A DNA stretch of 35,425 bases from Chloroflexi bacterium OHK40 (GTDB lineage Bacteria > Chloroflexota > Chloroflexia > Chloroflexales > Chloroflexaceae), in the NCBI GenBank assembly GCA_004367505.1, contig SFCB01000276.1:1-35425 (forward strand), given 5' to 3'. The notes under the pieces were generated by a model that saw only the letters and a list, made by a program, of their open reading frames with translations, made no database searches and was not told the DNA's origin. The stretch's first letter is position 1. Every line of letters begins with the position of its first letter. Shown here one piece after another: positions 722-13,146 of this stretch. Position numbers and translations under genes: made by a program.

Positions 722-3700
722 ATGCGTAGGCCACGTTCGATGCCCACCGGTGGACCGGCGACCCTCGTTCTGCTCTTCGCGCTGCTCCTGTGCGGTCTCC
801 CCGGCGCCACCCCGTTCGCCGTGGCCCAGGAGGGGACTGGCTTCCGGCTGATGCCCTCTCGTGCCGACGCCGCTCCGCCCGCGCTGTCCGCTGCCCGTGC
901 CCAGGTCGTCGGTACCGCCCCGGGCGATGCGCCGGCCAGCGCCCAGGCCGCCAGTGGGCCCGAGGGCGTGCCCCTCGTCGCGCTTCCCCAGGGAGGGGGA
1001 AGCCCGGAGCCGGACGTGGTCGAGCTCGAGACGCAGATCTCGCCACCCAACGCCGTGCGGCCTCAGGGCCTCACCCCCGAGCAAGCGGCCCGGATCACCT
1101 TCGGCCCCGCCAAGAGCGACCCGACCCTGCGCCCGACCACCCTCAGCGGCGCCTGCCAGGCCATGATCCGCAACGCGCAGATCGACGGCTACCAGGACCC
1201 CGATACCGGCTTCTTCAACATCTATAACTGGACGGTCATCCAGCCGGTGGTCTACGTCGAGACGAACACCTACTTCTCCTACCCCTACGCGCTCACCATG
1301 GAGGACGCCGACGAGGCTCAGTCCGATGGCCGCCCCGGCCGCGATGAGGATTGGTTCGGCCAGGATTTCTACTTTCCCACGGATGGTGAGGGGCTTCCTG
1401 ATCGAATTTAACCTGTACTACCCCGATGATGGCGGAAATGTCGGCTTCGATAGCGTCGATTTCGGCTACGTTGAGCTCTATCGCATCGACGATAATGGCT
1501 TCCTGATCGACGAAGTGCCGGGCGATCAGTTCGTTCAGGGCATCGTTGTGCAGCGGATCGACGTGGTCCCGCAACCCAACACGTGGTACCGCGTCCCCTT
1601 CTTCTTTGCCCAGGATCCGAACGATCCCAATGATGACGCGCTCTTCAACAGCATCAAGGGCCAGCGTGTTGCCCTCGTCTTTGATCAGGACGGTGACCGG
1701 CTGCCGCCCTACGAGAACGCGATCATCGACAACCCGCAGGTGACGGTCTGCCCAACAGCGCAGCCGCCCGACCGGGCGATCGAGGGCTTTGTGGCGGTGC
1801 AGGGCCTGCCGCTGGCGGGCCAGGGCAACGTCTCGATCACCACGGCCAGCCTGGGCCTGCTCTACCGGGAGGGGCCCGGCGCCACGCCGCAACTGGTGCG
1901 GGTGACGAACCCGTTTGAGAGCGGCTACTATCGCTTCCGGGGCCTGCCCAGCCTGCCGCCGGGGGGCTCCTACCAGGTGCTCTACCTGAACAGCGGCTAT
2001 GAGCGGGAGCCGCCGGCCGATGGCGGCCAGCGCATGGCCTACTACGCCGGCCCGCTCGTCACCAGCTTCAGCGATACGCGCACCGGCGGCTACTACTACG
2101 GCTGGGGCGGCTACTTCGATCTTTCCGACATCTTCCTCGGTGGCCCGGAGCACTACGCCGAGGTGGCCGGCACGGTCAGCTTCAGCTGGACGCCCCGTAG
2201 CTTCAATGGCGATACGGCACTGGAGGATGGCGAGCAGGGCTACTTCCTCTGCTTTTACGATCCGACCAGCTTCGCCGAGGTGTGCACCACCAGCCCGATC
2301 GAGGGTGGCTCCATCGCGGTGAAGGCCGCAGATCTGACAGGTATCCCCGGCTTCTCCTTCGAGTTGGGCAAGACGGTCGGCTGGTACGTGATGGTGGCCG
2401 GCCCCGGCTACGACCCCGTGAGCCCTGCCTTCGACGGCCTGGGTGCCAGCCGCTATAGCCGCTTCGTCACCTTTGTGGAGGCCGTGGACATCCCGGCGCC
2501 CTCGCCGCCTGAGGGCGGCGAGATGCCCGGCGACCCCGCTGAGGACGACGACAGTTGGACGCTGATGTTCTACCTGGCCGGCGACGACCCGCAGCTCACC
2601 ACGCCATCCGGCAACACCCGCAGCCTGATCAATGTGCTTACCAACCTGCTCCAGCTGCCCGACAGCTACCCCGAGCTGAACATCGTGGTGCAGTTCGACT
2701 TCTACGAGACGCTGGAGGGCGATCCGCCCGTGAGTAGCCTGGAGCCCGAGTTCCGTGGCACCCAGCGCTGCTTCTTCGCCCCGGGCACCCTGCGCCTGGC
2801 CGACGCCTGCCAGCAGCTCGGCGAGCAGAACACCGGCAGCCCCCAGGTGCTTGCCGACTTCATCAGCGATAGCCTGGCGCGCTACCCCGCCGACCGCACC
2901 GCACTGATCATCATGGGCCATGGCAACGCCGTGACCGGCGTGGCGGGCGACCGCACCAGCCTCCCCGACGATGCCCTGCGCCCCCACGAGCTGGAGCAGG
3001 CCTACGAACTGGCCAACCTCGACGACGATAAGCTCGATCTGCTCGTCTACTACTCCTGCCTGATGGGCAACTACGAGACGGCCACGATCGCCAGCCGTTT
3101 CGCCGACGTGATGGCCGGCAGCCCTAACATCGCCGCCCTGGTGGACGTGACGGCGCAGCTCGGCGCCGCCGCTGCCAGCAGCCAGGACCCGCGCGTAGTG
3201 GCCGCCGCGCTGGTGGAGGCCTACAACGACGAGCTCAGCCTTTACAACCAGCGCTACAACCGCAACCTTTCGATCGCCATGGCCGCCTACGACCTGCGGC
3301 AGCTCGCTGGCCTGCGCGATGAGGTGAACGAGCTGGCGAGCGCGATCACCGCCAGCCTCGATCTGGCCGACGTGGGCAACGCCCGGGCCGCCGTGCAGCT
3401 CTACGACTCATCGGCGCCGGAACTGTGGGGCTTCACCAGCCAGGGCGAGGACGCCCTGATCGACCTGCGGCACCTTGCCACGCTGCTCAGCGACAGCTCC
3501 AATGCGCGTATCCGGGACGCTGCCAGCAATCTGCTCGCCGCCCTGCTCCCGGTGGGCGACCCGAACGGCCTGGTGATCGCCAGCGTAGCCCGCAGTGGCC
3601 GGGCCGACCTGGTGGGCGGCGGCACGCACAACCTGAGCAATGCCGCCGGGCTCTCGATCTACTTCCCCACCGGGGTCGATGTGGGCAATCAGGCGACGCT

Positions 3701-3941
3701 GACCCGCAACTACCTGGACTACTACCGCCAGACGAGCTTCCGCACCGGCAGCTGGGACGAGCTGGTCGACGCGACGCGCACGGGCATTCCGAGCCTGCCC
3801 CGTGGCGGCAAGCTCGCCTCCATGCCCGTCGGCGCGGCGGGCTCCACCCTGATGAACCTTAACGCGCAGGAGCTCTTCCCGACCCTCGGCGCGCCCCTGG
3901 ACGAGACGGCGCTGCTCCATCTGCCGTTACTGCGCAGGTAG
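722..3941 (+). CDS. Secreted clostripain-like (family C11) cysteine peptidase, interrupted by a frameshift
   Basis: Two overlapping frames make one protein of about 1070 residues. The first (722-1411) starts with a strong GGAGG ribosome site, a signal peptide (hydrophobic core about residues 13-30) and a beta-rich segment. The second carries the same segment on from about 1383 and ends in a C11 domain. The domain start is the segment WTLMFYLAGDD (about 2557-2589). The likely catalytic histidine is in MGHGN (codon 2919-2921) and the catalytic cysteine in YSCLMGN (codon 3057-3059), both as in clostripain. The reading frame moves by +1 near 1375-1390, so no intact product is encoded as given. 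The middle 400 residues, with many Tyr/Gly, look like an extracellular beta-sandwich region. A secreted, calcium-type Arg-specific protease is the family role; specificity here is not readable. A pseudogene or a sequencing error are both possible. Confidence 0.8.
1375..1411 (+). other. Frameshift site inside the C11 peptidase gene
   Basis: The upstream frame reads DFYFPTD and then goes off into GEGLPDRI and a stop at 1409-1411. The downstream frame reads VRGFLIEFNLYYPDD straight after the same point. The join fits a one-base insertion (or two-base loss) close to 1380-1386. No slippery heptamer or following pseudoknot is evident, which argues against programmed frameshifting. Confidence 0.75.
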
Positions 3942-4402: not shown

Positions 4403-4440
4403 AAGAGTCCGACCTGAACCCGGTGATCCTGGGACCGCCC

Positions 4441-7400
4441 ATGACCTTGCAGCAGCCAAACCCGGCGCAGATCCGCACCCTGGTGAGCTACCTTCCGCCC
4501 GCAGTGGCGCGGGCGATTCATGCAGACCCACGGCCCCTTGAGGCGCCGCGCCACGAGCGCTTCCCGGCCGCCGTGCTGCTCGCCGATGTTTCCGGCTTCA
4601 CCGCGCTCACCGAGGCTCTGGCGGGGCGAGGGGCCAGCGGCGTTGAGGAGCTCACGACGCTGCTCAATCGCTACTTCAGCCGGATGATCGGCCTGCTGGA
4701 GGCCGCCGGTGGTGAGGTGGTCCAGTTCAGCGGCGATGCCCTGATGGCGATCTTTCCCGCCGATCAGGAGGCCCAGCTACCACAGGCGGTGGCCCGTGCT
4801 GGCGAAGCCGCCCGGCACATGCAGGCCGCCATGGATGAGTTCGCCACGCTGGCCACCAGTACCGGCGACCACGTGCTGGCCATGAAGATCGCCATCGGCG
4901 CCGGTAAGGTGCTGGCCATGTCGATCGGCGGGGTCTTCAGCCGCTGGCAGTACATCATCGCCGGGGCCCCACTCCGGCAGGTGGCCGAGGGCGAGCAGGC
5001 CGCCCGTCGTGGCGAGATCGTGTTCAGCCCCGAGGCCCGCGCGCTGCTGGCGGTGAGCCCCGGGCCCGGCGCCCCGCGCCGGATTATCGCCCCGGCCGAC
5101 CTGGACTGGAGCCACGCCGACACGGCGACCCTGGAGGCCCTGCGCCTGCACATCCCGCGGGCGATTACCGCGCGCCTTTCCGCCGTGGAGGAGCGCTGGC
5201 TGGCCGAACTGCGCCGCATGAGCGTGGTCTTCATCGGGGTAGGTGGCCTGGAGGACACCGGTGATGACTCGGTGGGCTACTTCCACGCCTGCATGCGCGC
5301 CCTGCAGGAGGTGACGTACCGCTACGAAGGGAGCCTGAATAAATTTCAGGTGGACGACAAGGGCGTGATCGGGATTCTGCTCTTTGGCGCGCCGCCCATG
5401 GCCCACGCCGACGATCCGCTGCGAGCTGTGCGCTGCGCCCTGGACTTGCAACGGGCGGCGGAGTTGCTCGGCCTGCGCATGGCTGTCGGCGTCACGACCG
5501 ACCAGGTCTTCGCTGGCCCGGTAGGCAGCCGCACCCGCCGCGAGTATACCGTGATGGGCGACGCCGTGAACCTGGCCGCTCGCCTGATGCAGCGGGCTGG
5601 CCCGGGTGGCGTGCTCTGCGACTATAGCACCTACGCTGCGGCCCGGGCCGAGGTGCGCTGGGATGTCCTGCCCGCCATCGCCGTGAAGGGCCGCGCGGCG
5701 CCGGTGCGCGTCTACCGGCCCCAGGGCCTCGCGAGCGCCGAGATGGCCCGCTCGGTGCGTCGTGGCGCCGAGCAGCCCCTGGTGGGCCGCGAGGCCGAGG
5801 TGCGGCAGCTCGAGCAGAGCCTCGCCGTGGTGGCCGCTGGCCGCAGCCAGGTGCTGTTCATCGAGGGCGAGGAGGGGATCGGCAAGAGCCGGATGGTTCA
5901 GGAGCTCGCCCGGCTCATGCGCGAGCGCGGTATTGTGGGCCTGCTCGGCACCGCCGAGTCGCTTGCCCGTGACCAGCCCTACAATGCCTGGCGCGAGATC
6001 TTCGGCAGCTACTTCGATCTCGACGAGGCCGGTGGTCCGGAAGACCGGCGCGCGATCGTGCGCGCTCGCCTCGGGCAGATCGCGCCGCCACTGTTGGAGC
6101 GGGCGCCGCTGCTCAACGATATTCTCGCCCTTGGCCTGCCAGAGACGGAGCTCACCAGCGGGCTGGAGCCGGAGCAGCGCCAGGCTGGTCTGCGCTCGCT
6201 GCTGCTGGAGTTGCTGCGCCTCTGGGCCGCCGAACAGCCCCTGGTGCTCGTTCTGGAGGATGCCCACTGGCTCGACGCGCTCTCCTGGCAGCTCGCCGTG
6301 CTCACCGCCCGCTCGCTCGCCGACACCGGCCTGCTGCTGGTCTGTGTGCGCCGTGCCGCCGACGAGGAGCCGGCCGGGCCCTTCGCGGATGAGTTGCGGG
6401 CCGCGGCGGGCAATGCCGTGATCACCCTTGGCCCGCTCTCGCCCGAGCAGACGGCGACACTCGGCGCCTCACGCCTGGGTGTCGCCCGCCTCTCGGCCGA
6501 TCTCGCCCGCCTGATCGCCGAGCGGGCCGCCGGCAACCCGCTCATCACCGAGGAGTTGGCCCTCAGCCTGCGCGAGCAGGGCGTGGTGGTAGTGGAGGGC
6601 GATCTCGGTGTACTGCGCGGCGACGCCGCCGAGCTCCAGCTCCCCTCTACCCTCCAGAGCCTCGTGCTCAGCCGCATCGACCATCTCCCCGTCGAGGAGC
6701 AGCTGACGCTCAAGGTGGCCGCCGTGATCGGCCCCTCCTTCAGTGCCGAGGCCCTCTGCGAGGTCTACCCTGAGCCGGTTGGCGCCGAGGTTGTTGCTGG
6801 CCGGCTCGATCGGCTGGTGGCCCGCGAGCTGATCATCGCCTCCGCCGACAAGGCCTGGGTGACCCACCGCTTCCGCCAGACGGTGCTCCAGGAGATGACC
6901 TACAGCACCCTCTTGCCAACCCAGCGACGTGACCTGCACGCCCGTGCCGCAGCCTGGTACGAGGCCCGGCCTGTCGAAGATCAGGGGGCCATCCTACCGC
7001 AGCTGGTGCACCACTGGCGCCACGCGGGCGACCACGCCCGTGAACTGCGCTACGCGCGCCTGGCCGGCCAGCGCTTCGCCGCAGAGTACGCCAACGACGC
7101 CGCCCTCAGCTACATCGAGCGGGCCCTGCAGCTCGCCCAGACCGGTAGCGAGCGCCTGGAGTTGCTCTGGCTGCGCCTGCAGATCCACGAGCGTACCGGC
7201 CAGCGTGAGGCCCAGCACGACGACTTGAGCCAGATCGAGTGGCTGGTCAATGGGGGTGACCCCGTACAGCAGGCCCGGGTGGCGAATGGCTGGGCGACCT
7301 ACTACAAAGATATCAGCGACTACCCGCAGGCTCTGGCCCAGCTCGCGAGCGCCGAGGCCCTCGCCCGTGAGGCCGGCGACCAGGCCAGCGCCGCGCGGAG

Positions 7401-8556
7401 CCTCACGCTGCGCGGCGAGATCTACGAGTTCCAGGGCGCTCTGAGCGATGCCCGCGCGTGCTTCGAGGCTGCCCTGACGATGTATCGTGCCCTCGGCTAT
7501 CGCCGTGGTGAGGCCAACAACCTCAGCAAGCTCGGCAACCTGCACTACTACCAGGGCGAGTACGAGGCTGCCCGCGAGCTCTTCCACCAGGTGCTCAGCA
7601 TCCGCCGCGCTGCCCACGATGCCAGCGAGTGCTTCACCCTCAGCAATCTGGGCGAGGTGAGCCTTAAGCTGGGTGAGGCCGATGCCGCGTGGGGCTACTG
7701 GGAGCAGGCTCTAGCCGCCGCCCGCCGCGTGGGCGACCGCAGCACCGAGGCGCTGGTGCTCGGCCAGATGGGCTACGGCGATCTGGCACGCGGGCGCTAC
7801 GGCGCCGCCCTTGAGAGCCTGAGCCGCTCGGTGGCGGCCTTCCGCGCCATCGGTGAGCGCCGCCGCGTGGCCGCCGACTTGAATGATCTGGGGATGGTCT
7901 GGCGCGATATCGGTGGCTACGCCGAGGCTCGCCGTTGCTTTGAGGAAGCCCTGGCGATCCAGACGGCCATCGGCGACACGCGCAACGCGCTCTTCACCTC
8001 GCTCAACCTGGGCTGGCTGCTGCTCGACGAAGCCCCCGACGCCGCCGGTGAGTACTATCGGGGGGCGCTCGCCTCTGCTCTGGCATCCGGCGACCGTGAG
8101 GGCGAGGCCTATGCCCGGAGCTACCAGGCCTACCTGGCGGAGCGCACCGGCGATCTGGCGACCGCCGGGGAGGCCTACCGCGCCGCTCTGGTCATCCGCG
8201 AGGAGGTTGGCGCGCCTGCCGCCGCGATCGAGGAACTGGCAGGGCTGGCCCGGGTGAGCCTGGCCCGTGGCGATCACCCCGTCGCCCTTGCCCACGCCCG
8301 TATCTGCCTGGCCCATCTGGATCGGGAGGGCGCCGAGGGGATGGAGTTTCCGCTGCTCGTCTATCTGAGTTGCTACAACGTGCTGCGAGCGGTGGGCGCT
8401 CAGGACGAAGCGTGCCGGGTGATCGGCGCCGCCTACACCCTGCTTATGGAGCGCGCCACCTCCATCACCGACCCGGCCATTCGCCAGGGGATGCTGCACA
8501 ACGTTCCGCTCAACCGCCGTGTGATCGAGGAGTGGGAGGCGGCCGGGTGCCCGTAG
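4441..8556 (+). CDS. Tandem class III nucleotidyl cyclase, AAA ATPase and TPR protein (soluble adenylyl cyclase-like)
   Basis: 1371 residues from ATG 4441, which has GGGA upstream; a GTG at 4423 would add six residues but has no ribosome site. Domains: cyclase C1 about 42-205, cyclase C2 about 258-430, ATPase from about 445 with Walker A GEEGIGKS (476-483) and Walker B LVLVLED (601-607), then TPR repeats from about 880 to 1300. C1 has both metal-binding aspartates, D49 (LADVSGFT) and D99 (FSGDAL), but not the Asn/Arg pair. C2 has K301, T370, N377 and R381 (EYTVMGDAVNLAARLM) but lacks the first metal aspartate (VFIGVGG). One shared active site between C1 and C2 is therefore expected, as in mammalian sAC (ADCY10). 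ATP to cAMP is the likely reaction. In similar proteins the ATPase-TPR part senses or scaffolds; here that is inference. The gene stands alone, convergent with the next. Confidence 0.88.
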   Translation: MTLQQPNPAQIRTLVSYLPPAVARAIHADPRPLEAPRHERFPAAVLLADVSGFTALTEALAGRGASGVEELTTLLNRYFSRMIGLLEAAGGEVVQFSGDALMAIFPADQEAQLPQAVARAGEAARHMQAAMDEFATLATSTGDHVLAMKIAIGAGKVLAMSIGGVFSRWQYIIAGAPLRQVAEGEQAARRGEIVFSPEARALLAVSPGPGAPRRIIAPADLDWSHADTATLEALRLHIPRAITARLSAVEERWLAELRRMSVVFIGVGGLEDTGDDSVGYFHACMRALQEVTYRYEGSLNKFQVDDKGVIGILLFGAPPMAHADDPLRAVRCALDLQRAAELLGLRMAVGVTTDQVFAGPVGSRTRREYTVMGDAVNLAARLMQRAGPGGVLCDYSTYAAARAEVRWDVLPAIAVKGRAAPVRVYRPQGLASAEMARSVRRGAEQPLVGREAEVRQLEQSLAVVAAGRSQVLFIEGEEGIGKSRMVQELARLMRERGIVGLLGTAESLARDQPYNAWREIFGSYFDLDEAGGPEDRRAIVRARLGQIAPPLLERAPLLNDILALGLPETELTSGLEPEQRQAGLRSLLLELLRLWAAEQPLVLVLEDAHWLDALSWQLAVLTARSLADTGLLLVCVRRAADEEPAGPFADELRAAAGNAVITLGPLSPEQTATLGASRLGVARLSADLARLIAERAAGNPLITEELALSLREQGVVVVEGDLGVLRGDAAELQLPSTLQSLVLSRIDHLPVEEQLTLKVAAVIGPSFSAEALCEVYPEPVGAEVVAGRLDRLVARELIIASADKAWVTHRFRQTVLQEMTYSTLLPTQRRDLHARAAAWYEARPVEDQGAILPQLVHHWRHAGDHARELRYARLAGQRFAAEYANDAALSYIERALQLAQTGSERLELLWLRLQIHERTGQREAQHDDLSQIEWLVNGGDPVQQARVANGWATYYKDISDYPQALAQLASAEALAREAGDQASAARSLTLRGEIYEFQGALSDARACFEAALTMYRALGYRRGEANNLSKLGNLHYYQGEYEAARELFHQVLSIRRAAHDASECFTLSNLGEVSLKLGEADAAWGYWEQALAAARRVGDRSTEALVLGQMGYGDLARGRYGAALESLSRSVAAFRAIGERRRVAADLNDLGMVWRDIGGYAEARRCFEEALAIQTAIGDTRNALFTSLNLGWLLLDEAPDAAGEYYRGALASALASGDREGEAYARSYQAYLAERTGDLATAGEAYRAALVIREEVGAPAAAIEELAGLARVSLARGDHPVALAHARICLAHLDREGAEGMEFPLLVYLSCYNVLRAVGAQDEACRVIGAAYTLLMERATSITDPAIRQGMLHNVPLNRRVIEEWEAAGCP

Positions 8557-8589: not shown

Positions 8590-11061
8590 GCGCACGACGT
8601 AGTAGGTCGGCCCACGCCCATCAGGAAAGGGGGGGCCGGTCGCCTCGGGCGTGGATGCAAGGCTCGCGTCAAGGGCGGCGGCCTCCTCGGTGGCGAAGTA
8701 GCCGGTGAGCAGGAAGCGGTCGCCCGGCGCGGGTGGTGGCTCGGCGCTGCCCCCCTCGAAGACGCCGACAGGCCGCCCGGCCGCGAGGAAACGGAAGCTC
8801 GGGTGATCGCGCACCGTCCGGGGCACGTAGATCCGCCCATCGCCATCCTGACGGCCGGCGTAGATGCCCATCCAGCTCTGCACAGGGTAGAAGCCCCCGA
8901 ATACCTGCGGGTCGCGTGGCATCACCACGAAGTAGAGGCCAGCGTTGAGCCCGATCAGGCCACCCACGAGGATGAGCGGCGCAAGCCGCCAGGCCAGGGT
9001 CGGCCGGCTAGGGGCGAGGATGCGCCAGAGCTCGGCCCAGCCTGTAGCCGCGATAATACAGGCGGGAGCCAGGGCGCCGGAGCTACGCATGGCGTGGGGC
9101 GCATCCACCGCGAGGAGCCCCGGGAGGAGGCCGATGCCGAGGGCGCCGAGCAGGAATCGAGCGGGCCATGGGTCCGGGCGGCGCAGCAGGGCGGCGACTC
9201 CTGCGAGCAAGCCCACGCCGCTGATCACGTCGAGCAGCGGCCGGAAGGGGGCGTGGTGTCGGCCATTCGCGTCGCCCTCCACGGTGAACATCCGCAGGTG
9301 GCGGCCGAGGTTTGCGTCCAGGGCGGCCAGGGGGGCCTGGGCCCGCAGTGCCTCCTCGCCGAGCAGAAATACCGCCCCCACCCGCTCGTTGAAGTCGCCG
9401 GGGCGGGTGATGGCGTAGGCGGCGAGCGGCGCGACGGTGAGGGTCAGGCCCAGCGCGGCGGCGCTCGCCCCGGCCATCCAGCCGCGCCAGGCGCGTGGTT
9501 CGCGTAGCAGGAGCAGTAGCGCCAGCCACAGCGCCGCGAGGGGTGTGATCCGGCCGGTGTGGTAGGTCTGCGCGGCCAGCCCCAGCAGTGCCCCCGCCAG
9601 CAGGCATGCCCCGAGCGATCTGAGCGCCGGGAGGGCCGTGGCCCTCTGGGCCTCCCCGCCGGCCCGGCTCCGGTCGAGGCCAACGAGTAGTAGCCACCAG
9701 GCGCTGAGGCTGAGGAGCGGCTCGAACACCGTGGGAAAGGCGAAGCGGCTCAGGCTGATGTGCCAGCTGGAGACGGCGAGAAGCAGAGCTGCTACCAGGC
9801 CTACGGCGCGGTGTCCGCTGAGGCGGGCGGCCACGCCGTAGAGCGGCAGCACCGTGAGCGCGCCGGCCAGTGCCGTCACCAGGCGCATGGTCCAGAGATG
9901 AACGCCAAAGATGTTGATTGCGGCGGCAAAGGGGTAGAGGCCCAGGCCGGGGAGCTCCACCCGCTCCTCGCGCACGAAGATCGGGCGGTAGCCGGGGTCC
10001 TCGGCGATGCGTAGAGCCACCAGACCGTGGCGTGCCTCGTCGCGCCAGAGCCCAAAGGGCAGGTCGTCGATGCGATAGAGGCGCAGGGTAAGAGCCAGGC
10101 CGAGGATCGCCACGAGTGCGAGCAGCGGGACGCCCGGGCGGAGGGGCACGACGGCGCGAGCGGCCCCGAGGCCGCTCGGTAGCCGGGCGAGAACCAGCAG
10201 GGCGGCGGCGGCCAGGGCAGCGGCGATCCCGGTGGCAATTCGGGCGTGCATCAGCCCGGTGGCCAGGCCCAGGGTGGCGAGGGCCGTGGCGCCCCAGAGC
10301 GGGCCGAGGGCCGGGGGAGAGTCGCGGCCTGCCCACCAGCGCCAGCCGGCGAGCACAGTGGTGGCGCCGAGGGTCCATGGCGCCGGTGGCAGGGCCCAGG
10401 CCAGGCCATGCGGATCGCGCCAGGCCCAGGTGGCCAGCAGTAGGGCGAGCGCGGCGCAGAGCGCTCGGACGGCGGGCCGAGGGGCTGTCCAACCCGCCAG
10501 TGCGCCGAGCAGCGCGATCGGCCAACTCAGCCAGAGGGCGCGCAGGAGCGTTCCCCCTGCGTCGGCGGTGAGGGGCGTGAGGGTGAGGCGGTCGAGGGGC
10601 AAACCAAGGGCGCGGTAGTCGCGGCCGTCGGTAGCGGCGCCGGGCTGGCTGACAGCGGTGCGCAGGTCGAGTGGGCGGGTACCGGCGAGGCCGGCGGCGG
10701 CCCCCGGGGGCAGGAGCAGTTGGTAGCGGCGCCAGCCGGGGGTCACCTCAAAGGCGGCGAGCGTCACCCGCTCGCCCACGAGCGCCACCAGTGGCGTGCC
10801 TTCAGCGGCCAGACGCTCGCCGCTCAGCCGCATCTCGAGCCGGGCGGGGCCGAGCGGCGCGCCATGGAGCATCAGCCGGGCATCGGGGCCACTCCAGCGA
10901 AAGCTCGCCCCGTCGCCCTGTTCAGCATCGTAGAAGCCGGCCAGGAAGCGCCCATCGCCGCCCGCGCCCACATCGAGGCGGAGCGGCGGCGCGGCCAGCA
11001 GCGCCAGCCACAGCGCGAGCACGGCGAGGCCCGCGATGATCAGGGATGCCCGTGTAGCCAC
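8581..11061 (-). CDS. GT39/PMT-like membrane glycosyltransferase with extracytoplasmic insert
   Basis: 826 residues from GTG 11061. The frame is open further up, but the residues before it are polar and the first membrane helix starts seven residues after this GTG. A membrane helix (about 7-25) is followed by about 150 residues of beta-rich, non-membrane sequence, then many helices to the C-terminal part. The key motif is RLYRIDDLPFGLWRDEARHG (about 324-343), whose Asp-Glu pair D341-E342 matches the catalytic first-loop DE of PMT/ArnT-type enzymes that use polyprenyl-phosphate sugars. After the last helices comes a C-terminal soluble segment of about 100 residues. Likely role: transfer of a lipid-linked sugar to an envelope acceptor; the acceptor is unknown. 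A TACAAT box sits six bases before the start, so the transcript may be leaderless. Confidence 0.8.
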   Translation of the reverse strand: MATRASLIIAGLAVLALWLALLAAPPLRLDVGAGGDGRFLAGFYDAEQGDGASFRWSGPDARLMLHGAPLGPARLEMRLSGERLAAEGTPLVALVGERVTLAAFEVTPGWRRYQLLLPPGAAAGLAGTRPLDLRTAVSQPGAATDGRDYRALGLPLDRLTLTPLTADAGGTLLRALWLSWPIALLGALAGWTAPRPAVRALCAALALLLATWAWRDPHGLAWALPPAPWTLGATTVLAGWRWWAGRDSPPALGPLWGATALATLGLATGLMHARIATGIAAALAAAALLVLARLPSGLGAARAVVPLRPGVPLLALVAILGLALTLRLYRIDDLPFGLWRDEARHGLVALRIAEDPGYRPIFVREERVELPGLGLYPFAAAINIFGVHLWTMRLVTALAGALTVLPLYGVAARLSGHRAVGLVAALLLAVSSWHISLSRFAFPTVFEPLLSLSAWWLLLVGLDRSRAGGEAQRATALPALRSLGACLLAGALLGLAAQTYHTGRITPLAALWLALLLLLREPRAWRGWMAGASAAALGLTLTVAPLAAYAITRPGDFNERVGAVFLLGEEALRAQAPLAALDANLGRHLRMFTVEGDANGRHHAPFRPLLDVISGVGLLAGVAALLRRPDPWPARFLLGALGIGLLPGLLAVDAPHAMRSSGALAPACIIAATGWAELWRILAPSRPTLAWRLAPLILVGGLIGLNAGLYFVVMPRDPQVFGGFYPVQSWMGIYAGRQDGDGRIYVPRTVRDHPSFRFLAAGRPVGVFEGGSAEPPPAPGDRFLLTGYFATEEAAALDASLASTPEATGPPFPDGRGPTYYVVRAR

Positions 11062-11067
11062 GGGCCG

Positions 11068-11073
11068 ATTGTA
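11068..11073 (-). promoter_or_regulatory. -10 box placed for a leaderless transcript of the GT39-like gene
   Basis: TACAAT on the minus strand ends six bases before the GTG start at 11061, so the predicted start point falls on or next to the GTG. No ribosome-binding site fits between them. A -35 match is not evident (GTGGGC at 17-base spacing). Confidence 0.45.
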
Positions 11074-11127
11074 GCAGATGTCCGTGTGTCGCCCACGAGC
11101 ACCGTGGAGGTGTGGCTCTGGGTATGC

Positions 11128-11146
11128 CACCCCTGCGTACGCGGGG
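11128..11146. repeat. Copy of GC-rich palindromic element
   Basis: Sequence of the type CCCTGCGTACGCGGGGGCA resembles the GCGGGGGCAG units at 4020-4075 and 14238-14252. The 153-base gap between the glycosyltransferase start and the metal ATPase stop (11062-11214) holds only this, the -10 box and no gene. Confidence 0.4.
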
Positions 11147-11214
11147 GCAAACGGTCCAAACGATGGGCCAGGCCCGTAACCAGGGGCCGCGCCGGGCCGG
11201 AAGGGAGCGCTGGC

Positions 11215-13146
11215 CTAGCCCCGGTAGGCCAGCAGGCGCAGCCCGTTCAGTACCACCAGGATCGTGCTCCCCTCGTGGCCCACCACGCCGATCGGCAGCG
11301 GCACGCCAACCGTGAGCGTGGAGATCACCAGCACAACGACGACTGCCATCGCGAAGGCGATATTCTGCCAGACGATCCGCTGGGTGCGCTTACTTAACCC
11401 GACGGCGTAGCCGATCGCCCCGAGGTCGTCCGACATGAGCACGATGTCGGCGGTCTCCAGGGCCGCGTCGGTGCCTGCGGCGCCCATGGCGACGCCGCTC
11501 GTCGCCGCCGCGAGGGCCGGGGCGTCGTTCACACCGTCGCCGACCATGGCCACCGGGCCGTAGCGGCGCTCCAGTTCACCCACGAGGCGCAGCTTGTCTT
11601 CGGGCAGCAGGCCCGCGTAGACCTCGTCCACCCCCAGACGGCGGGCCATAGCCTCGGCCACACGTGGGCTGTCGCCGGTAAGCATCACCACCCGCGCGAT
11701 GCCGGCGGCACGCAGGGCCGCGATCTGGGCTGCCGCGTCGGCTCGCTCGCGGTCCATCACCGCCACAAGCCCGAGCCAGCGCTCGCCACGGCGGGCGAGC
11801 AGCACCGTGCCCCGGCCCTCATCAGCCAGGCGCTCGGCCTCGGCGAGCAGGGCTGGCGGTGCCGGGTGGCCGACGTGCTCCATCAAGCGCGCGGAGCCCA
11901 CCACGATCTCCTCGCCCTCCCGGCGGGCGCGCACGCCCATGCCGGTGATCGCCTCGAACTGCTCTGGCTCCTCGGGCGTCAGGCCTCGAGACGCGGCATA
12001 GGTGAGGATGGCGCGGGCGATCGGGTGCTCGCTCGGCTGCTCGGCGCAGGCCACGGCGGCCAGCAGTTCAGCCTCGCCAACCCCCGGGAGGGGCACCACA
12101 TCGGTTACCTCCGGGCGGCCATAGGTGAGCGTGCCCGTCTTGTCGAAGGCCACCACTCGTACCCGGCTCAGCTCCTCGAGGTGGGCTCCGCCCTTGAAGA
12201 GTACGCCACGCCGCGCCGCGTTGGCGATCGCGCTCAAGAGCGCTGCCGGCACGCTGATCACCAGGGCGCACGGCGAGGCAACGGTGAGCAGCACCATGCC
12301 CCGGTAGAAGTTCTCGGCGAAGGGTACGCCGAAGAACAGTGGCCCGAGCGTGATAAAGAGCGCCACCGCGCCGATCACCCCCACGGCGTAGTACTGCTCG
12401 GCCCGGTCGAGAAAGCTCTGGGTGCGCGCCTTCCGGGCCTGGGCTTCGCTCACCATGCCGATGATCCGGGCCAGGGTGCTCTCGCTGGCCGGCCGGGAGA
12501 CCAGCACATCCAGCGCGCCGTTCTGGTTGAGCGTGCCGGCAAGTACAGTGGCGCCTTCACCTTTCTGCACCGGCATGCTCTCCCCAGTAAGGGCTGATTC
12601 GTCGAAACTGCCACTGCCGCGCAGAATGACCCCGTCCAGCGGCACCCGGTCCCCAGGGTGCAGCGCCACGACGTCGCCCACCTGCACCGCCTCGACCGGC
12701 AGCTCGATCAAAGCGTCGCCGCGCCGCACCCGCACGGTCTCGGGCCGCAGCTCGAGCAGCGCGCTGATCGCCCGGCGGGTGCGTTCCATGGCGTAGCTCT
12801 GGAGCAGGTTGGAGAGCGAAAAGAGGAAGAGCAGAATGGCTCCCTCGGCCCACGCGCCGACGTAGGCCGCCCCGAGCGCCGCGAGCACCATTAGCAGGTC
12901 TACCTCTACGGTGCGCTCGCGCAGAGCGGCGACGATCGCGCGCACGGCGTAGAAGCTGCCGAAGACGTAGGTGGCCACCTGGACGGCCAGAAGCAGGCCG
13001 GGGGCCGCACCCACCCGCTCCATCAGGCTGCCCGCGATGATTCCGGCCAAGGTCAGGGCAACAAAGAGCGGCTCGATGACCCGATCATCAACGTGGAGCC
13101 GCCAGCGCCGCTCGCCATCGGCCCGTGTGTGGTGAAAGGTTGACAT
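11215..13146 (-). CDS. P1B-4-type heavy-metal transporting ATPase (CoaT/CtpD-like)
   Basis: 643 residues. All P-type signatures are present: TGES (187-190), phosphorylated D335 in DKTGTLT, the HP pair of P1B pumps (H374-P375), and GDGVND (536-541). The transmembrane metal site reads SPC (291-293), not CPC, and the last helix has HEGST (624-628) followed by NGLRLL. SPC plus HEGGT-like is the P1B-4 signature, whose known substrates are Co, Fe and Zn, exported using ATP. There is no N-terminal CxxC metal-binding domain; the protein starts with a short His-containing segment and six predicted helices before the core, fitting that subgroup. It lies 29 bases downstream of the TrmB-like regulator, so the two form an operon. 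The metal cannot be told from sequence; iron or cobalt/zinc efflux is most likely. Confidence 0.88.
   Translation of the reverse strand: MSTFHHTRADGERRWRLHVDDRVIEPLFVALTLAGIIAGSLMERVGAAPGLLLAVQVATYVFGSFYAVRAIVAALRERTVEVDLLMVLAALGAAYVGAWAEGAILLFLFSLSNLLQSYAMERTRRAISALLELRPETVRVRRGDALIELPVEAVQVGDVVALHPGDRVPLDGVILRGSGSFDESALTGESMPVQKGEGATVLAGTLNQNGALDVLVSRPASESTLARIIGMVSEAQARKARTQSFLDRAEQYYAVGVIGAVALFITLGPLFFGVPFAENFYRGMVLLTVASPCALVISVPAALLSAIANAARRGVLFKGGAHLEELSRVRVVAFDKTGTLTYGRPEVTDVVPLPGVGEAELLAAVACAEQPSEHPIARAILTYAASRGLTPEEPEQFEAITGMGVRARREGEEIVVGSARLMEHVGHPAPPALLAEAERLADEGRGTVLLARRGERWLGLVAVMDRERADAAAQIAALRAAGIARVVMLTGDSPRVAEAMARRLGVDEVYAGLLPEDKLRLVGELERRYGPVAMVGDGVNDAPALAAATSGVAMGAAGTDAALETADIVLMSDDLGAIGYAVGLSKRTQRIVWQNIAFAMAVVVVLVISTLTVGVPLPIGVVGHEGSTILVVLNGLRLLAYRG

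Follow-up and report, generated by a model that had tools for sequence, protein, structure and literature searches.

The window analysed here, 35,425 nt of Chloroflexi bacterium OHK40 on contig C18 of a 6.9 Mb host genome in 301 contigs, very probably codes for a cytosolic adenylyl cyclase (class III) that belongs to the soluble (sAC/ADCY10) lineage, with a single C1-C2 active site that is probably controlled by the C-terminal tail and not by bicarbonate. A previous sequence-only reading had recognised a bacterial cyclase with the sAC-type split site. Residues, predicted fold and trees agree on this, and the enzyme is of a known kind that is common in the phylum. Its resemblance to human sAC is due to common descent.

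Gene and domain organisation

The gene and its parts are located as follows.

4441..8556, + strand: sAC-like tandem cyclase-STAND-TPR protein, 1371 aa (ORF; Pfam Guanylate_cyc twice, AAA_16, TPR_12)
4441..5079, + strand: C1 cyclase domain, about aa 38-212; D49, D99 and K149 kept, R179/E183 replacing Asn/Arg
4723..4725, + strand: Gln95 codon, position of human Lys95 (bicarbonate site), from the alignment to human sAC
4984..4986, + strand: Ala182 codon, position of human Arg176 (bicarbonate switch), from the same alignment
5182..5730, + strand: C2 cyclase domain, about aa 250-430; K301, T370, N377, R381 and a DDKG loop; G266, without the first metal Asp
5776..6339, + strand: AAA_16 / STAND P-loop NTPase, aa 446-633 (Pfam, E 8.6e-23)
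7200..8100 (limits approximate), + strand: TPR array, TPR_12, at least 5 stretches, with TPR-protein matches in the PDB

The ATG at 4441 is codon 1; translation could alternatively begin with a GTG at 4423. The interval 4441-5730 comprises the two cyclase domains only, while the gene continues to 8556 with AAA_16 and the TPRs. An ATPase in the tail, as in sAC, had been proposed; Pfam indeed places the NTPase C-terminal of the cyclases, and both its Walker A (GEEGIGKS at aa 476, nt 5866) and Walker B (VLVLED at aa 602, near nt 6244) are intact. No transmembrane segments were detected in the protein by a hydropathy scan, Pfam gave no membrane domain, and the highest 19-residue hydropathy (1.72) falls within the NTPase core. 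Membership in the TOMM kinase/cyclase family was rejected (NCBIfam match of 157 bits vs a cut-off of 706). RNA features or tRNAs were not found in the window.

The split active site matches human sAC

The best PDB match of the cyclase is human sAC (4cm2, E 3e-31, phmmer), whereby the matched human chains comprise the catalytic core only. C1 and C2 were each aligned separately. In C1, D49, D99, K149, Q95 and A182 stand opposite human D47, D99, K144, K95 and R176, and in C2, K301, T370, N377 and R381 stand opposite K334, T405, N412 and R416. Every residue named in the sequence-only reading is thus superposed on its named human counterpart, and the human numbering used there agrees with the published table for D47, D99, K334, N412, R416, K95 and R176, which also gives their functions (PMC12867704 Table 1), and with PMC12250328 for T405; functions of the site residues were taken from PMC4506562 as well. 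The two domains are complementary in the way that had been described. C1 keeps both metal-binding Asp and shows R179/E183 where a complete site has Asn/Arg, and C2 keeps its four residues and has G266 (human N298) at the position of the first metal Asp. The distances from T to N and R (7 and 11 residues) are the same in both enzymes. A further catalytic residue, K149 opposite the pyrophosphate-associated human K144, had not been listed before.

The structure prediction of the C1-C2 pair, which had been proposed as a check, resulted in a confident AlphaFold2 model (pLDDT 93.7, pTM 0.92, 51-row alignment) that is closest to human sAC among solved structures. Human sAC fills all 24 top rows of the VIA comparison, with Z 40.0-42.6 over about 400 aligned residues at 24-25% identity. 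The next structural match is tmAC9 (Z 34.9), and Foldseek gave the identical order. Model and sequence thus support the C1-C2 unit as a predicted sAC-type intramolecular heterodimer.

Conservation among bacterial tandem cyclases

Almost all of about 127 related tandem cyclases, which come from six phyla, have the split site. The comparison set holds 127 rows, with the window counted twice and some rows near-identical; according to the record titles they derive from Chloroflexota, Cyanobacteriota, Proteobacteria, Planctomycetota, Acidobacteriota and Myxococcota. Equivalents of D47 and D99 are present in 127/127, those of N412 and R416 in 125/127 each and that of T405 in 119/127, while the K334 equivalent is Lys or Arg in 115/127. 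The first metal position of C2 is Asp in two rows and lacks it in 125. As D49/D99 are invariant and N377/R381 are kept in 125 rows, the match to the human split site lies far beyond chance. The named loci come from a search with the peptide pattern RREYT[VMA][MI]G[DSV], which includes T370, so that conservation of this residue among L043-L122 is in part a product of selection; D49, D99, N377 and R381 lie outside this pattern. Among pattern-free matches the T370 equivalent is lost in a few paralogs.

Cyclase matches occur in 54 of 61 genomes of the host and its relatives and in 129 of 201 genomes sampled from the phylum, many of the latter being single-domain matches. Named relatives include Chloroflexales/Oscillochloris, and rhizobial plasmids carry more distant ones of about 30% identity. 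The host genome itself contains eight more tandem cyclase paralogs (contigs C295, C265, C221, C27, C105, C108, C95 and C16). Some host paralogs show altered catalytic letters, for example T at N377 (L005), H at R381 (L008) and G at T370 (L004 and L007).

The C1/C2 division is shared by descent

A tree was built from 70 single domains (32 C1, 32 C2 and six single-domain cyclases from the same genomes). C1 and C2 form two separate clades, with human C1 in the former and human C2 in the latter (support 100/100 and 100/96). Accordingly, C1 and C2 had already divided their tasks when the human and bacterial genes diverged. As an alternative, a homodimeric cyclase could have been duplicated and have decayed in parallel in bacteria and animals, so that the split site arose independently in each. 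Such convergence has some precedent, as a similar C1/C2 split is established for membrane adenylyl cyclases, whose ancestors are generally held to be Rv1625c-type homodimers, so that decay of this kind has occurred more than once. In a convergent history the two human domains would be sisters. However, a tree constrained to unite human C1 with human C2 is worse by 58 log units and is rejected (p-AU 0.0003). Moreover, the grouping persists after masking of 28 catalytic and neighbouring columns (quick tree; SH-aLRT 99 for C1 and 89 for C2), which rules out the catalytic residues as its driver. We therefore regard independent origin as hardly credible. The trees place human sAC beside no one particular bacterial lineage, as the human branches are long and their neighbours differ between C1 and C2 and between masked and unmasked trees.

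Proposed mechanism and catalytic status

According to the proposed mechanism, C1 and C2 of one chain would fold onto each other, with a single functional active site between them. D49 and D99 of C1 would bind two metal ions, K301 and T370 of C2 would recognise adenine, and N377 and R381 would stabilise the transition state during conversion of ATP to cAMP. The catalytic residues are lost from the pseudosymmetric pocket on the other side. The STAND P-loop NTPase and TPR tail probably control the cyclase as a sensor for a ligand or partner other than bicarbonate. Residues, fold, shared descent and domain order were computed here; cAMP synthesis, single-site catalysis, tail control and bicarbonate insensitivity are what we infer. 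The host genome shows 21 matches to cNMP-binding domains, making cAMP receptors and signalling plausible in this organism.

A chain with all catalytic residues can nevertheless be inactive without a partner or ligand, which counts against the active reading. A pseudo-cyclase, in which the fold is retained as a nucleotide-binding or dimerisation module and no cAMP is made, is a further alternative. Paralogs with lost catalytic letters do exist in the family (for example, R381 is replaced by L in L155 and by H in L008, and N377 by T in L005), and 6yii is by its record title a class III cyclase-like ATP-binding protein. In contrast, neither the window protein nor any of its closest orthologs has lost a catalytic residue. 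The pseudo-cyclase is hence not favoured and appears very unlikely, and an active enzyme remains the preferred reading.

The bicarbonate site

The mammalian Lys95/Arg176 pair is not present in the window cyclase, which shows Q95 and A182 instead. From these two substitutions it had been suggested that bicarbonate may not activate the enzyme. Both substitutions are confirmed, but they are not equally informative. The R176 equivalent is Arg in only 4/127 tandem cyclase rows and A, G or S in 106/127; since nearly all bacterial relatives lack the Arg, A182 represents the bacterial norm and says little on bicarbonate. The K95 equivalent, by comparison, is Lys in 94/127, and Gln is confined to nine rows (about seven distinct genes), all of them close orthologs of the window protein. 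Q95 is thus the better hint of a lost bicarbonate control. In the bicarbonate-responsive Anabaena enzyme the Lys95 equivalent is crucial (PMC4506562), and the sea urchin and salmon sACs, which share the sAC architecture and have one of K95/R176 substituted, do not respond to bicarbonate and are controlled by alkaline pH (PMC12867704). For these reasons Gln95 can argue against bicarbonate, and the window cyclase, in which both residues are substituted, is probably controlled by something other than bicarbonate.

Nevertheless, an active sAC-like cyclase could still be stimulated by bicarbonate through a site that needs neither K95 nor R176. The other residues of the human site are not conserved in bacterial orthologues, and the mechanism there is described as unclear (PMC4506562). 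Five Chloroflexus-type tandem paralogs, L152-L156, all lack R176. They derive from one genome of 5,258,541 bp, which we take to be that of C. aurantiacus J-10-fl, and show K/G, K/A, K/A, H/S and T/A at positions 95/176. If one of them is stimulated by bicarbonate, Arg176 would be dispensable in bacteria. With the Anabaena, sea urchin and salmon enzymes standing against it, we consider stimulation of the window cyclase rather unlikely and favour a bicarbonate-insensitive enzyme.

In the C1 domains of four Acaryochloris loci (L079, L082, L084 and L085), equivalents of both Lys95 and Arg176 are found, with IR[LV][TA]QSLA beside human VRLAQNMA. The pair was seen only in Acaryochloris in our cyanobacterial survey, the other bacterial relatives examined being without it.

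A linked gene for a secreted protease

A second gene lies directly upstream of the cyclase.

722..3941, + strand: secreted clostripain-like (C11) protease gene in two frames (Pfam PF03415 Peptidase_C11, E 2.7e-17; synteny)

The frames extend from 722 to 1411 (signal-peptide-like N-terminus) and from 1326 to 3941 (C11 domain, with the His and Cys motifs MGHG and SCLMG). The protease is encoded in one frame in orthologs, so the break around 1326-1411 is a frameshift or an assembly error in the window. L043, L044, L045, L046, L050, L051, L053 and L022 have a homologue immediately upstream of the cyclase; the coordinates for the first seven are as follows.

L043:1480-4866, same strand: upstream protease
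L044:1758-4916, same strand: upstream protease
L045:278-3325, same strand: upstream protease
L046:1209-4898, same strand: upstream protease
L050:3-1445, same strand: upstream protease
L051:2-3145, same strand: upstream protease
L053:1445-4768, same strand: upstream protease

An upstream protease was not found in the more distant orthologs L048, L052, L054, L055 and L057. Where comparable, the outer flanks of the protease-cyclase pair differ among orthologs. With only three C11 matches in the whole host genome, the recurrent adjacency is unlikely to be due to chance, and it represents a clade-specific link. In another distant ortholog, L056, a C11-like stretch protein is encoded downstream and convergent (9548-11269, - strand).

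As the protease is secreted and the cyclase cytosolic, direct contact between the two is not expected, and the simplest reading would be co-transcription or shared control. It is possible, though tentative, that the ortholog group represents a bicarbonate-blind sAC branch (Lys95 to Gln) that forms a unit with a co-transcribed secreted protease and whose STAND-TPR tail senses something other than CO2 or bicarbonate.

Relation to known cyclases

By the definition used here, a pair of class III cyclase domains within a single chain (PMC6660944), the window protein is of the sAC type. It combines two domains, no transmembrane segment, a P-loop NTPase, the split residues, C1/C2 orthology and, in the predicted model, the core fold. 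With human ADCY10 (4CLF, 4OYZ and others) it shares the two class III domains per chain, the split residues and their spacing, the fold (Z about 42) and the downstream P-loop NTPase. It differs by an identity of only 24-25%, by Q95/A182 instead of K95/R176 and by its TPR tail in a chain of 1371 aa. Human sAC is about 1610 aa long, and for full-length sAC autoinhibition by the tail has been reported. Membrane adenylyl cyclases (AC9, AC8) are likewise C1/C2 heterodimers with one active site, but are transmembrane and structurally further away (Z about 30-35). Single-domain class IIIb cyclases such as Spirulina CyaC (1WC0) and Anabaena CyaB1 share the class III fold, but are homodimers with two complete sites. 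Like the window cyclase, they carry Thr at the adenine-recognition position. Neither is in our tree; if they behave like its single-domain rows, they would fall outside the C1/C2 clades.

Kobayashi, Buck and Levin (2004) reported sAC-like cyclases in bacteria and eukaryotes, and later work adds that bacterial sAC also has a P-loop NTPase. Motifs are spread over two domains in another sAC-like enzyme, too (PMC3383692). Since sAC-like bacterial cyclases were already reported in 2004, the split-site observation is a correct rediscovery and not new. Chloroflexus aurantiacus cyclases of this type share with the window protein the phylum and order, two cyclase domains, a long NTPase/TPR tail and the split site. 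The loci L152-L156, taken as C. aurantiacus, are roughly 35-39% identical to it and retain K95 in three of five cases. The 2004 study reportedly describes three such cyclases of Chloroflexus aurantiacus, which have two catalytic domains and whose similarity extends through the C-terminus; one of them is said to have been cloned there and stimulated by bicarbonate. Apart from the changed bicarbonate site and the linked protease gene, the window cyclase is an ordinary addition to the known bacterial sAC-like cyclases.

According to a 2026 report, the bicarbonate residues are missing from most non-mammalian sACs, two of which respond to pH instead; this has reopened the question of which residues make a cyclase respond to bicarbonate. 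The family offers natural variants for testing these residues, with K95/A176, Q95/A176 and, in Acaryochloris, K95/R176. Taken together, animal sAC and a large bacterial family have the divided active site in common by descent, and this arrangement existed before the animal enzyme did.
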